Source of the DNA: an uncultured bacterium | GTDB taxonomy: Bacteria > JAAXHH01 | Direction of reading: 5' to 3' | Assembly: GCA_913051705.1 (NCBI GenBank) | Contig: CAJXCW010000010.1 | Span: 1 to 43,643 of the forward strand | DNA: 43,643 bases | In this document: in pieces, positions 1 to 42,893 of the stretch | Layout of the letters: the number at the start of each line of letters is the position of its first letter | How positions within the stretch are numbered: the first letter of the stretch is position 1 | The notes under the pieces: generated by a model | Told to the model about the DNA's origin: nothing | What the model saw: the letters and a program-made list of their open reading frames with translations, nothing else | The model's database searches: none | Translations under genes and position numbers: made by a program

Positions 1-1131
1 GATATAGGATATCTGGCCCTGCGAGTTCAATGTAAAGATGACATCATTCAGTTGCTCGACCAGATTACGGTACCGGGCTTCGGACGCTCTGGCTTCGCTG
101 TAGAGTCGGGCTCTGCCGATAGCTGCGCCGATATGCTCACTCAACGCGATCATCATTGTTAAATCCGATGCGGAAAGTATATTATCACCGACACTTTCTA
201 TATTAAGCGTTCCGAGGACTGCCCCCTGATCTATGATAGGCACAACCAGATCGGATAACGTCCCCTCTGTTGAGCTGATATGGTCCGGATCATCGGATAC
301 ATCTTCCACCAACGCCGGCTCACCGGTGCGAACAACGCGTCCTGTTATCCCTTCCTTAAGAGGAATCGGCGTAACAACCTGTTGATAGCCGATAAAATAC
401 TGGGCATGTAGATAGTCGTCTTTGAGCAAATATAACGAGATATGCGTATAGCCAAAGGTGTCGGCTACGGCCTCGACAATCGTACGATAAACAATCTGCA
501 GGTCCATTTCCTTTGCCAGGATCGTACGAACGCGATCCAGAAGCGCCATTTCCTGGGCCTGACGTTCGGATGCGGTAATCAGGTTATCGAATTGAAACTC
601 TCTTGATTGTAACGCATCTTCCGTCTGCTTTCGATTCGATATATCACGATCAATGGCGAACGCCACTCTGCGCCCTTACCACTCGACCATCCGGGCGGTG
701 ACTTCGACTGGAAACGGCGTGCCATCCTTACGGCGACGTTCCTCCTCAAATGTAAGCACTTCACCGGAGCGTAATTTATCTAACCGGGAATCTGACTTTC
801 GTGCTTCGTCCTCCTTGTCCAGTTCGTTGATAGACCGGCCGATCATTTCTTCGCGCGTGTACCCATGAATACGACAGGCCGCGTCGTTGGTATAAATGAT
901 CTTACCCGGCACATCCTGATCGTCCAGATCCAATAAATACATGGAATCCGGCAATTGTTCGGAAAACAAACCAAAAAGATCTTCTTCTCTAAGCTCAAAA
1001 GTATTAGATAGAAGCGATTGACTTGAAGGGGAGGTTGTTTTGTTCTGTTCTTGCCTCATAATGGACATACCGATATGAAGGTAATAACCAACGATTTCCA
1101 GACAGAAAACAGACCGTAGAATACTCGACAC
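1..1131 (-). pseudogene. PAS-GAF(-PAS) sensor protein, interrupted by one in-frame TAA (codon at 676-678); continues beyond the window start
   Basis: ORF 676..1131 ends in a PAS domain (..RRKDGTPFPVEVTARMVEW*). Manual translation of the same frame continues without another stop to base 1: GRRVAFAIDRDISNRKQTEDALQSREFQFDNLITASERQAQEMALLDRVRTILAKEMDLQIVYRTIVEAVADTFGYTHISLYLLKDDYLHAQ..., a GAF domain. Confidence 0.8.
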
Positions 1132-2528: not shown

Positions 2529-3335
2529 TCACCCGGCCAACGCCTTCTCCACCTCATTCTCCCAGGCGCCTTCTACATGGATGCCGTATTCAGCCTTACC
2601 GCCTGTCGCATGGGGGCCGGTAACATACGGTCGGTAATCCCGGCCATCTTCAATCAAATCCTTTTGGGCATAGTCTGTATGGAGAAAGTGGAAGGCGATG
2701 CCTGCCCGCTCCTTATCCGTCTTATTCTGTCCGGTACAATGTGCGGTGCCATAACAGAAGAAAAGTGCGCCGCCGGCCTCCAGTTCGATCGTCTTCGCCT
2801 GTTCTTCGGGAGGATAGCAACGGATATGGTGATCGCTGTATGGATCGCGATCATGCCCATAGGCGGTTTTATAGCTTTCGGGCACAACCCGTATTGTTCC
2901 ATTGGCTATCGTAGCATCATGTACCGCTACCCACATCGCTGTCCCTTTGAGTGGGTCGCGGATCTTAAAATACGCATTATCCTGGTGCCAATTGGTCCCC
3001 ATTCCATCGCCGCCTGGTTTTAGAAACACCTGATCCAGATGTAAAATAAAAGGGTCACCTATTAATTCGGAAATAGCCGAAACCACGGTGGGGTGAAACG
3101 GCAATGCCCGGAACATGGTACTGTGATTATACATCGGACAGAGTTGCAGGTTACGCAGCTTGGTAGAATGGGTTTCACCGTCGCCGTCCGTCGCTACGTT
3201 CCGCAAAGCCCCCACGTCCATCAGCCTGGTGATTTCCATCTGGAGTGCGGTGGTCTCCCGTTCGGAAAAAAAATGAGGCTTAGCGACATAGCCATGGATT
3301 CTAAATTGGCTCCGTTCATCCGCTGTAAATACCAT
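2529..3335 (-). CDS. Phytanoyl-CoA dioxygenase (PhyH) family protein
   Basis: NWHQDNAYFKI (HxD) motif and later H/R motif; N-terminal 'F..hGYvakphff'. Confidence 0.85.
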   Translation of the reverse strand: MVFTADERSQFRIHGYVAKPHFFSERETTALQMEITRLMDVGALRNVATDGDGETHSTKLRNLQLCPMYNHSTMFRALPFHPTVVSAISELIGDPFILHLDQVFLKPGGDGMGTNWHQDNAYFKIRDPLKGTAMWVAVHDATIANGTIRVVPESYKTAYGHDRDPYSDHHIRCYPPEEQAKTIELEAGGALFFCYGTAHCTGQNKTDKERAGIAFHFLHTDYAQKDLIEDGRDYRPYVTGPHATGGKAEYGIHVEGAWENEVEKALAG

Positions 3336-11908: not shown

Positions 11909-13189
<1,281 letters not shown>

Positions 13190-31684: not shown

Positions 31685-31775
31685 TTTGTTGATTTGGTGA
31701 TTGGAAAATCAGTCAACCCCGAACGGCTCGCATCGTGAACCGCAGGACACATGCCATCAGTCAATCAACAAATCA
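31676..31775. terminator. Inverted repeat spanning the 3' ends of two convergent genes
   Basis: ATTGACTGAT (31676-31685) / ATCAGTCAAT (31756-31765); TGATTTGTTGATT (31682-31694) / AATCAACAAATCA (31763-31775). Confidence 0.55.
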
Positions 31776-32563
31776 AAAAATTTCTCCTGCATCTCCGCCC
31801 ACTGCCTTCTTCCTAACTCTTTGACCCGGCTGTCATCCCATTTTTCCAGTGGTCGATAACTGGGATGACCCGCTCTATCCAGGCATGGGTTGTGTTTCGT
31901 ATTGTAGCAGCAGATAAGGCTCCAGCGCGGATCGTCGCTCTCATTGGGATTAGAGCTATGCAGCAAATTGGCGTGAAAGAACAGCGCCGTGCCGGGCGCC
32001 ATCTCACAATATACATGATCCAGATGCTGCTTTGCCAGTTCCACACGTTTCGGATCAGCACCGGTCTGGGTGCCAAAGCGGCCATGTTCGACGCGGCCTA
32101 ATTTGTGGGAACCCCGTAAGACCTGCAAGCACCCGTTACCCCGGTACGCCCGGTCCACGGCGATGTAGCAACTGGCCATATCGGGATACAACGCCTGGTT
32201 ATGATACCAGTAACCGTAGTCCTGATGCCATTCCCACGCGCCGCCGATCTTGGGTTCCTTCACCATCATCTTGTAATGGTATAAATACACTTCGTCGCCC
32301 ATGACCCGTTCCATGGTATCTACGATACGTCGCCCATGGACAAATCCGTTATAAATATCCTCCTGATCGATATCTGAGGTCAGCCACAATTTGCTCTCAC
32401 GGCCGGCAGCATCATTAGCCGAATGGACGAGTTCCTCCTTCTCCTGATCTGCTTTACCGATCTGGAGAAGGAGATCCATCTCTTCCTGATCGTACAGGCC
32501 TTCCACCATCAGATAGCCGTCTTCTTGGAACTGCGTAATGTGTTTTTCTGTGAGTTGAAACAT
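31757..32563 (-). CDS. Phytanoyl-CoA dioxygenase (PhyH) family protein
   Basis: WEWHQDYGYWYHN; AVDRAYRGNGCLQVLRGSHKLG; ALFFHANLLHSSNPN. Confidence 0.9.
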   Translation of the reverse strand: MFQLTEKHITQFQEDGYLMVEGLYDQEEMDLLLQIGKADQEKEELVHSANDAAGRESKLWLTSDIDQEDIYNGFVHGRRIVDTMERVMGDEVYLYHYKMMVKEPKIGGAWEWHQDYGYWYHNQALYPDMASCYIAVDRAYRGNGCLQVLRGSHKLGRVEHGRFGTQTGADPKRVELAKQHLDHVYCEMAPGTALFFHANLLHSSNPNESDDPRWSLICCYNTKHNPCLDRAGHPSYRPLEKWDDSRVKELGRRQWAEMQEKFFDLLID

Positions 32564-34018: not shown

Positions 34019-34705
34019 TTAACCCGTTCTCAAAATCTTCCACTGCCGACCATTACCGCCCGGCACCGTCGCTTCCTGATAGGAGACGATAAACGCCCGG
34101 CGGCGCTGATTCGTCCGGTTACCGGCGGAACCGTGCCAGAGCAGTGAGCTGAACAGAATCATCGTACCGGCCTTAACGGGACAGAATACGCGCTCATTCA
34201 TATCGATGTCAATATCCATAGCCAGGGTACAGAGCCCCTCTTTACGCGTACTGGTCGGCTGAAGGCCGCGTTTATGGCTACCGGGTATGACTTCAAGACA
34301 ACCGTGTTCGATGATCGTATCCTGCAAGGAGGTCCAGATAGACATGCGGTGTTCACTCTGCGAGTGCTTCGTGTAGTAGGCATCATCCTGGTGCCAGTGG
34401 CATATAGCATCATCATTCGGCTCTTTGGAGACCAGCTTGGAGGAAAAGATGGCAATGCCGGGGTAGACCAGCGGGGCGATGAGATCCAGAATACGATCAT
34501 CGGCGCAGAAGGCTTCGGTGGTTTTGCTGACCAGTCCCAGTTGCATGATCCATCCCTTGCCGTGGGCGTCCTTTCCGGCCCCTTCGTCCATCAGCCGATC
34601 CAGCTCTTCATTCATGTCATCCAGTTCGGATTGGGGAAACATATCTTCTACGAGGGTGTACCCCTGTTCGTGGTAGTCGTGGATTTGGTCTTGGGTTAAT
34701 GTCAT
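34019..34705 (-). CDS. Phytanoyl-CoA dioxygenase (PhyH) family protein
   Basis: MTLTQDQIHDYHEQGYTLVEDMF; CHWHQDDAYYTKHSQ; CLEVIPGSHKRG. Start at 34705; the ORF-track extension to 35059 is antisense-free read-through over the next gene. Confidence 0.9.
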   Translation of the reverse strand: MTLTQDQIHDYHEQGYTLVEDMFPQSELDDMNEELDRLMDEGAGKDAHGKGWIMQLGLVSKTTEAFCADDRILDLIAPLVYPGIAIFSSKLVSKEPNDDAICHWHQDDAYYTKHSQSEHRMSIWTSLQDTIIEHGCLEVIPGSHKRGLQPTSTRKEGLCTLAMDIDIDMNERVFCPVKAGTMILFSSLLWHGSAGNRTNQRRRAFIVSYQEATVPGGNGRQWKILRTG

Positions 34706-34718
34706 AGTATCAGGCCCT

Positions 34719-35510
34719 TTATCTGTTTGCCTGCTGCGCCCGCTCGGCGCGGGCAGTCTGCTGATTACGAGACCAGTAATTGTCGATGGGCGTCTCTCGT
34801 TGGTCCGGTGGTAAACGGAAGGCCAGCGTGTAGGCGCGACGAGACTGGTCGGTCCGGTTCGGTCCCGCATAATGGAGCATAAAGGCCGCATGTAGGGTCG
34901 CCCCGCCCGCCGGCACCGGGCAGGCGATGCCTTTTGACGCCCATTTCTCAGGATCATCCACCTCCAGCCCGTGAATGCGCGGGTCATGGTTGATACTATG
35001 GTGCGGCAACACATCCAGTTTGTGGCTACCCGGTACGAAATGCAGACAGCCTGATTCAACTGTCGCGTCGTCCAGCGGCATCCAGAAGTTGACGCCGTAC
35101 GCCCTGATCGTGGGGTCGTGGTACGCCTGATCCTGATGCCAGGGAGTCGCCGCGCCTATACCCGGCGGTTTATAGATCATATGTTCCCCATTCCGGGGCA
35201 GCATCTCCTCACCCAGAAGCTCCCGGGCCATCCCTTGCGCATTTCGTAGATACCGTGTTTCTTTGAGTTCTGGTGCGTATTGACTCGGCCCCAATATTTG
35301 CGGCAGGGTGGCCTGATCTCCTTCATCTGTCCCTGCCAGGTCAAATTGGTTGCCGGACGCCCAACCGATCTTATCGGAAAACAACCGATCATAAATCAAC
35401 CTTAAACGTTCCACCTCTTCCTGAGCCGTGATCGCGTCAAGCACCAGATATCCCTCTCGGTGGAAGGCCGCGATTTGTTCTTTTGTTAAAGAGGTGGTCG
35501 GCGATGTCAT
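34719..35510 (-). CDS. Phytanoyl-CoA dioxygenase (PhyH) family protein
   Basis: LTKEQIAAFHREGYLVLD; TPWHQDQAYHDPTIRAYG; CLHFVPGSHKLD. Confidence 0.9.
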   Translation of the reverse strand: MTSPTTSLTKEQIAAFHREGYLVLDAITAQEEVERLRLIYDRLFSDKIGWASGNQFDLAGTDEGDQATLPQILGPSQYAPELKETRYLRNAQGMARELLGEEMLPRNGEHMIYKPPGIGAATPWHQDQAYHDPTIRAYGVNFWMPLDDATVESGCLHFVPGSHKLDVLPHHSINHDPRIHGLEVDDPEKWASKGIACPVPAGGATLHAAFMLHYAGPNRTDQSRRAYTLAFRLPPDQRETPIDNYWSRNQQTARAERAQQANR

Positions 35511-40745: not shown

Positions 40746-40829
40746 CCTCAACCCCTACGTTCCCCAAAAACAACCGGATCATCATTGCTTTTTCCCACCA
40801 AGATCCCTATCATTACTTAAACGCTTTTC

Positions 40830-40861
40830 CAATCAGACAATCAGACAATCAGACAATCACC
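40830..40861. repeat. Period-8 tandem tract (CAATCAGA x3 + CAATCACC) immediately upstream of XRE-cyclase gene
   Basis: Direct reading. Confidence 0.8.
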
Positions 40862-40867
40862 ATTTCC

Positions 40868-41593
40868 ATGTCCCTCCAATTCCTCAGCCGTCGCATCCGT
40901 TTACAACGTGAAAAACGCGGCCTCAAACAGCATGACATCGCCCATGCCTTACAGATAAGTCCGCAGGCTGTATCCAAATGGGAACGAGGGGAGAATGCCC
41001 CCGATATCGCCTTGCTGCGGCCGCTGGCGGGTTTGCTCGGGGTGTCTATCGACTGGCTGATGGGTGGGGATGCGGATGATCCGGATGTGATGGCAGCCAC
41101 GGTGCTGGCCTCCGGCGTTCAGACCGCACGAAGTAAATCCGAATCGCTGCCTCCGAAAGCCTTTGCAGACTGGATCAATGCCCGTTGTTATCAAGCAACC
41201 GAATCGGTCCTGCGGCATGATGGTATTCCGATCAAATATAACGGTCCCGGTATCCTGTGTTTTTTTTCCGGCGCAGGCCATGCGGCACGGGCGGTGCGTA
41301 CGGCGCTGCACATGCGCCTGATCGAAACGGAACCTCTCAAGATCGGTGTTTGCTCCGGAGACGTATATTTCGGCTCGGTCGGCCATCCGGATTACGCCCG
41401 CCCGGATGTGATTGGTGAGACCGTCAGCATCGCCCTGCTGGCCATGGACTGGGCGGTAGAACATACAAAAACCGGCGTAGTCGTTACCGCCTCCACCATG
41501 GAAGCGATGGACAACACAGTCACCGCCGGTCCTTATACAGACGTTCATCTCAGCGGCATCTCACATGCGGTGTCGTTAATAGAAGTGAGTTGA
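40868..41593 (+). CDS. XRE-family HTH protein fused to a degenerate class III adenylate/guanylate cyclase-like domain
   Basis: FLSRRIRLQREKRGLKQHDIAHALQISPQAVSKWERGENAPDIALLRPLAGLLGVSIDWLMGG (XRE); KAFADWINARCYQATESVLRHDGIPIKYNGPGILCFFSG..HAARAVRTALHMR...KIGVCSGDVYFGSVGHPDYARPDVIGETVSIALLAMDWA (cyclase fold). Confidence 0.8.
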   Translation: MSLQFLSRRIRLQREKRGLKQHDIAHALQISPQAVSKWERGENAPDIALLRPLAGLLGVSIDWLMGGDADDPDVMAATVLASGVQTARSKSESLPPKAFADWINARCYQATESVLRHDGIPIKYNGPGILCFFSGAGHAARAVRTALHMRLIETEPLKIGVCSGDVYFGSVGHPDYARPDVIGETVSIALLAMDWAVEHTKTGVVVTASTMEAMDNTVTAGPYTDVHLSGISHAVSLIEVS

Positions 41594-41606: not shown

Positions 41607-42893
41607 GTGTCCGTAACTGCAATAGTCGGTGCAAACTGGGGAGATGAAGGCAAAGGCAAGATGGTCGATATCATGGCGGCTGAGGCCGATATGGTCGTGC
41701 GATTTCAGGGCGGGAGCAACGCCGGTCATACCATCATTAACGATTACGGCAAGTTTGCACTGCACCTGCTGCCGGCCGGTGTGTTTTATCCGCACACGGT
41801 TAATATGCTCGGACCGGGCGTCGCCTTGAATGTACATGCTTTTACAAAAGAGCTCGATATCTTGAAAGAGCGCGGGGTTCCAACGCCCGATATTCGGATT
41901 TCAGACCGGGCGCAACTGGTGATGCCGTACCATCTCCTGCTGGACGAGTATGAGGAGAACCGCCGCGGCGCCCAGGCCTTCGGGTCAACCCGTCAGGGTA
42001 TCGCGCCGTTCTATGCCGATAAATATTCGAAAGTCGGCGTGCAGGTGGCCGATCTGAAGTATCCGGATCGTATGAAAAGGCAGATTGAAGGCGCGCTGGC
42101 GACAAAAAACGTGCTGTTCGAGCATCTATACCACCAGCCTTCTTTATCTGCGGATACACTGGTAGATGAAATGCTGGAGGCCGCACAGGGCATTCTGCCT
42201 TTTGTAGACGACACCGTGACCCTGATTCATGACGCCCTTTCAGACGGCAAACATATCTTGTTGGAGGGTCAGTTGGGCGCCTTGCGTGATCCGGATCATG
42301 GGATTTATCCCTATCCGACCTCCTCGTCGCCTCTGGCCGGTTTCGCATCGGTGGGGGCTGGCATACCACCTTCGGCCATTCAGCAGGTGCTCACCGTGAC
42401 CAAAGCCTATTCCAGTTGTGTCGGTACAGGACCGTTTGTGACAGAGTTGCAGGATCCCGAAGCTCAGGAGCTACGCAACCGGGGCGGCGATGCCGGCGAG
42501 TACGGCGCTACGACGGGCCGACCCCGCCGCGTAGGCTGGTTTGATGTGGTCGCCACCCGATACGGTTGCCGGATACAGGGTGCCACCGAGGTAGTTCTGA
42601 CGAATCTCGATGTGCTTGGCTATCTCGATACGATCCCGGTGTGCGTCGCCTATGAAACCGGATCAGAACGTACAGAATCCTTCCCGCCGCCCGCTCAACT
42701 CGACCAGGCGAAACCTGTCCTGACGTCCTTACCTGGATGGCGACAGGATGTTGCCGAGGTGCGCACGTTTCAAGACCTGCCCGCCCAGGCGCAACAATAC
42801 GTCTTGCAACTGGAGGAGTGGATCGGTATTCCCATCACCTGGATCGGGGTCGGTCCCAGGCGGGATCAGATAATTCAAAGGGAGAAAGCATAG
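41607..42893 (+). CDS. purA: Adenylosuccinate synthetase
   Basis: VGANWGDEGKGKMVDIMA; FQGGSNAGHTI; GTGPFVTEL; EYGATTGRPRRVGWFD. Confidence 0.96.
   Translation: MSVTAIVGANWGDEGKGKMVDIMAAEADMVVRFQGGSNAGHTIINDYGKFALHLLPAGVFYPHTVNMLGPGVALNVHAFTKELDILKERGVPTPDIRISDRAQLVMPYHLLLDEYEENRRGAQAFGSTRQGIAPFYADKYSKVGVQVADLKYPDRMKRQIEGALATKNVLFEHLYHQPSLSADTLVDEMLEAAQGILPFVDDTVTLIHDALSDGKHILLEGQLGALRDPDHGIYPYPTSSSPLAGFASVGAGIPPSAIQQVLTVTKAYSSCVGTGPFVTELQDPEAQELRNRGGDAGEYGATTGRPRRVGWFDVVATRYGCRIQGATEVVLTNLDVLGYLDTIPVCVAYETGSERTESFPPPAQLDQAKPVLTSLPGWRQDVAEVRTFQDLPAQAQQYVLQLEEWIGIPITWIGVGPRRDQIIQREKA

Follow-up and report, generated by a model that had tools for sequence, protein, structure and literature searches.

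S-adenosylhomocysteine hydrolase, the product of sahH, removes S-adenosylhomocysteine (SAH), a by-product of methylation. SahR belongs to the ArsR type, recognizes a 20-bp motif and acts as a repressor. Class III nucleotide cyclases work as dimers, and a cyclase-like domain is found together with a helix-turn-helix (HTH) in the mycobacterial cyclase-LuxR proteins. In the Proteobacteria, SahR and SamR control the SAH hydrolase gene at the level of transcription, with autoregulation and a palindromic operator (PMC4239095). In class III cyclases the adenine base is recognized by a Lys, which reads N1, and an Asp, which reads the 6-amino group (PMC4215837). Bacterial cyclase-like proteins with or near an HTH are described in PMC4886424.

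Here we analyze a 43,643-nt stretch of DNA from an uncultured bacterium (the window), which encodes a protein with an XRE DNA-binding domain and a class III cyclase-like domain (Table 1). Judged from the sequence and its conservation, there is a good probability that this protein is a one-component regulator that senses an adenine-containing metabolite through its ex-cyclase domain. The family to which it belongs numbers about 40 members as found here, spread over some nine uncultured phyla. A scan of species genomes yielded 24 loci, all from uncultured bacteria, and later searches added 14 new ones, making a total of 40 with the window protein and L014, a second member in the window genome. 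The scan patterns were placed in the cyclase part, so that gene neighborhood played no role in the selection, although a member lacking those motifs would escape. All members come from metagenome assemblies, and the window genome has an estimated contamination of 5.7%. No description of a family of XRE-cyclase regulators was found in the part of the literature covered; the family looks previously undescribed.

Table 1. Features of the regulator locus (window coordinates)
Feature	Position	Strand	Basis or remark
XRE + class III cyclase-like regulator	40868..41593	+	241 aa ORF
XRE/HTH_3 DNA-binding domain, residues 6–64	40883..41059	+	PF01381, E 7e-16
Class III cyclase-like domain, residues 74–240	41087..41587	+	Profile, AlphaFold, Foldseek, alignment
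Predicted operator CAACCGGATCATCATTG (CAAC-N9-RTTG)	40771..40787	+	Conserved upstream motif
Predicted -35 box TTGCTT	40785..40790	+	Overlaps 3' half-site of operator
Predicted -10 box TATCAT	40808..40813	+	17-bp spacer from -35
purA, adenylosuccinate synthetase	41607..42893	+	PF00709, E 1e-157; GTG start after GGAGG

Domain architecture and fold

The start codon of the regulator falls where the family alignment begins, and homologues in many phyla rule out a chance ORF. At its N-terminus, the HTH_3 model of Pfam scores 58.4 bits against a curated cut-off of 23, and the PDB matches of this domain include the P22 c2 and 434 repressors. The C-terminal part is more diverged. Thus, the Pfam Guanylate_cyc model gives only 12 bits on the window protein alone, below its cut-off of 21.9, a threshold which three homologues of the same architecture exceed (25.5–28.6 bits). 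Cya2 (2w01) was aligned by phmmer to residues 75–235 with an E-value of 8e-5, and a profile of the cyclase domain searched against the PDB has class III cyclases as its only matches at E < 0.01, the best at 4e-9. The AlphaFold2 model, a monomer, has a mean pLDDT of 90, and its best 50 Foldseek matches in the PDB are class III cyclases, headed by Cya2 2w01 (E 2e-13; TM by target 0.72–0.75). The initial annotation had seen an XRE HTH followed by a region laid out like a class III cyclase and had named structure prediction as a check; both the domain scores and the predicted structure agree with that reading, and within the limits of prediction the class III cyclase fold is established.

Catalytic and adenine-recognition residues

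The residues were aligned with cyclases of the same and one related genome in which every catalytic residue is present. The first metal-binding Asp corresponds to Gly83 (beside Ser82) and the second to Pro127, while the transition-state Asn and Arg are replaced by Ser187 and Leu191, respectively. A displaced Asp does not account for this: the few residues to either side of the first metal site include no acidic one, and no Asp lies near the second site. The earlier reading that both Asp appear to be absent is confirmed. What that annotation left unmentioned is the loss of the catalytic Asn and Arg, and the retention of the adenine-specifying pair, Lys123 and Asp180.

The family follows the same trend to varying extents. 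Among its aligned members, the first metal Asp is lost in 37 of 38, the sole keeper being L031, which has both. The second metal Asp is kept in 25/39. Together with the Asn, it is present in all 25 members outside the window protein's subclade and lost in all 14 inside. The subclade (support 99/96) also holds L086, L030, L039, L103 and members from the Opitutales. By contrast to these partial losses, the transition-state Arg is present in none of 39 members, L031 included, and the adenine Lys and Asp are kept in 38 and 39 of the 39, respectively. L014, which is 40% identical to the window protein, falls into another branch with proteins of Zixibacteria and Latescibacterota; the two are therefore old paralogues within one genome.

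Descent from class III cyclases is clear, and one member keeps both metal Asp, so one might ask whether the window protein retains weak nucleotide cyclase activity alongside its HTH. As none of the four metal-binding and transition-state residues survives in it, and the Arg is missing even from L031, we regard this as extremely improbable. Catalysis lost and the base-recognition pair retained across the family, as the alignment indicates, is rather the pattern expected of an adenine receptor. The kept Lys and Asp make an adenine-containing metabolite the most likely ligand, and the missing metal ligands argue against a triphosphate, which would point to SAH, adenosine, SAM or AMP.

We propose a receptor that works without metal. 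The XRE domain would bind the 17-bp palindrome CAAC-N9-RTTG over the -35 box in the promoter of the regulator itself, the cyclase-like domain presumably holding the regulator as a dimer, and binding to this operator would control the regulator's own gene and the gene downstream. The cyclase-like domain would make no cyclic nucleotide; with the adenine Lys and Asp retained, metal-free binding of an adenine metabolite such as those listed above would alter DNA binding. The initial annotation had suggested a cyclase fold repurposed as a ligand-sensing or dimerization module that controls DNA binding. The fold and the loss of both Asp are borne out, and the predicted operators fit the use of the protein as a DNA-binding regulator; the conserved Lys/Asp pair and the missing Asn and Arg are now added to this picture.

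Predicted operator, neighboring genes and regulon

An unsupervised palindrome search of the upstream regions in the first locus set found CAAC-N9-ATTG 58–97 bp before the start codon, a candidate operator of 17 bp. The background of CAAC-N9-RTTG is 0.094 per kb on both strands. In the later set, which lay outside the discovery, the exact site is present in 8/9, with L091 off by one base, and among the sahH-linked regulators with upstream sequence, 17 of 20 have it over the -35 box. Its orientation never changes: the TTG of the site forms the beginning of the -35 box, followed by a 16–18 bp spacer and TAnnnT. When operator and promoter were combined into one pattern, 728,282 strand-bases gave 16 matches, of which 12 are regulator promoters, three sahH promoters and one a stray. 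The stray, CAACGCGATCATCATTG, lies at 142–185 (+) of the window, inside an ORF on the opposite strand (1–666, -), and shares 15 of 17 bases with the window regulator's own site. A genome-wide search of the window genome with the looser pattern CAACN8CATTG gave 33 matches vs 24 in the control and thus mostly chance hits. Riboswitch control at the promoters in question was rejected, these regions having no Rfam match.

Within the window protein's subclade, the operator is kept in only three lineages (the window, L030 and L039); it is absent from the upstream regions of L086, L103 and the Opitutales members. L014, L017 and L018 also have no operator in their own promoters and instead share AAAGTCAAG about 40–65 bp before the start. 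In the window, a perfect tandem repeat of CAATCAGA (3.8 copies, 40830–40859) lies between the regulator's promoter and its start codon, making the leader longer than in most relatives.

What follows the regulator differs between clades. sahH lies directly downstream in 21 of the 40 members: it was the next gene on the same strand at 12 of the 24 first-scan loci, in several phyla, and it directly follows the regulator in all nine further members from Hydrogenedentota and Sumerlaeota. None of the 14 subclade members is so linked. This association bears on the idea that the cyclase-like domain is a dimerization scaffold only, in a constitutive autoregulator that senses nothing. The family-wide loss of catalytic residues would suit it, and a dimer domain suffices for many XRE repressors; however, in a mere scaffold there would be little reason for the adenine Lys and Asp to persist across phyla at the frequencies given above while the catalytic residues disappear, or for the gene to follow one adenine-metabolite enzyme. 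We consider it unlikely.

If sahH is under the control of the regulator, the site would be expected at the sahH promoter even in genomes that have the regulator at another locus. An exact, in-register site was found at this promoter in all four main-clade genomes that have the regulator elsewhere (G000, G001, G015 and G063; G000 is the window genome), as opposed to 0/15 genomes without a regulator, three from the window's own family included (Fisher p = 1/3876, the related genomes being not fully independent). In the sahH-linked members, SAH or adenosine is the likeliest signal, the gene context pointing to adenine and SAH metabolism. The canonical sahH of the window genome is on contig C17, and its promoter carries a second site 21 bp upstream of the first. 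Because the five subclade genomes checked (four Opitutales and G064) have no operator at sahH, these sites are probably read by L014 rather than by the window protein. Nevertheless, the recognition helix of the window protein is nearly the same as that of L014, and the window protein, with a site in its own promoter, may compete with L014 at sahH.

The window also encodes a second, shorter SahH-like protein (11909–13165, -), 39–40% identical to canonical ones, whose match to PF05221 is split in two, some 32 positions of the model being absent; no site lies upstream of this gene, and it was rejected as a target. Phytanoyl-CoA dioxygenase-like ORFs at 2529–3335, 31757–32563 and 34019–35510 (all -) were named by eye from their HxD motifs.

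How the site acts is a separate question. The same protein and operator might form a class II activator that touches sigma region 4, as lambda cI does at PRM. The center of the site near -42 suits activation, operator and promoter keep one register wherever they were found, and beyond the TTG many of the -35 boxes match poorly. On the other hand, the RTTG of the operator is itself similar to a -35 box, which can produce a constant overlap even without activation, and the unlinked sahH promoter of the window genome (TTGACC-17-TATAAT) is near consensus and would need no activator. Activation is a real possibility, though we would not bet on it. Because of that near-consensus promoter, and because the same logic is at work in SahR, repression through occlusion of the -35 box, relieved by ligand, is slightly favored.

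In the window protein's subclade, where the Asp of the second metal site and the transition-state Asn have gone too, the regulator would have left the sahH operon, and here it precedes purA, whose product catalyzes the committed step from IMP to AMP. This is the only purA found in the window genome; it starts 13 bp after the regulator's stop codon, a spacing from which we presume a common operon. As the subclade is never sahH-linked, SAH sensing by the window member becomes less probable, and it probably recognizes a different adenine compound. The purA neighbor suggests a signal from the AMP branch, although one neighbor is weak evidence: purA lies beside none of the other family loci examined, and was ruled out as a conserved neighbor. 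Elsewhere in the subclade, L039 and L103 (Armatimonadota, without metal ligands) are directly upstream of an aconitase-like gene, and a class II aldolase-like gene comes after L086 (2269–3009, genome G062), both named by eye; G062 also has a second, sahH-linked member, L026. There is perhaps an even chance that the multi-phylum family as a whole records a cyclase turned into a metal-free adenine receptor, first for SAH at sahH and then re-assigned, to purA here and to aconitase in Armatimonadota.

Significance and relation to known systems

If true, this would be a new sensor fold for one-component regulators, namely a catalysis-free cyclase kept for its purine pocket, and SAH control would extend to mostly uncultured phyla, in which we know of no SAH regulator of such kind. 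The graded series of members with both metal Asp, one or none would allow a reconstruction, residue by residue, of how an enzyme became a receptor, and the operator would make the regulon predictable in unculturable genomes.

Control of sahH at the level of transcription, autoregulation and a palindromic operator, all predicted for the present family, are what it has in common with SahR/SamR and the SAH riboswitches. Unlike SahR, it combines an XRE domain with a cyclase-fold sensor and a 17-bp site, and it occurs in mostly uncultured phyla; no ArsR model is among the Pfam matches of the window protein, whose HTH is HTH_3. The family would work like SahR but is no member of it. With the class III cyclases Cya2, CyaC and CyaB it shares the fold, the order of strands and helices and the adenine Lys/Asp pair, whereas the metal Asp, the Asn and the Arg were lost to varying extents and the XRE fusion was gained. 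The HTH_3 fold and the short palindrome over the -35 box, predicted here, recall the XRE repressors 434 cI, P22 c2 and lambda cI, except that the C-terminal domain is cyclase-derived instead of a LexA-like peptidase or a cupin. Finally, the proteins of PMC4886424 and the mycobacterial cyclase-LuxR proteins have another HTH class and belong to other bacterial groups, and, in the text covered, they are reported with neither a sahH association nor an operator.
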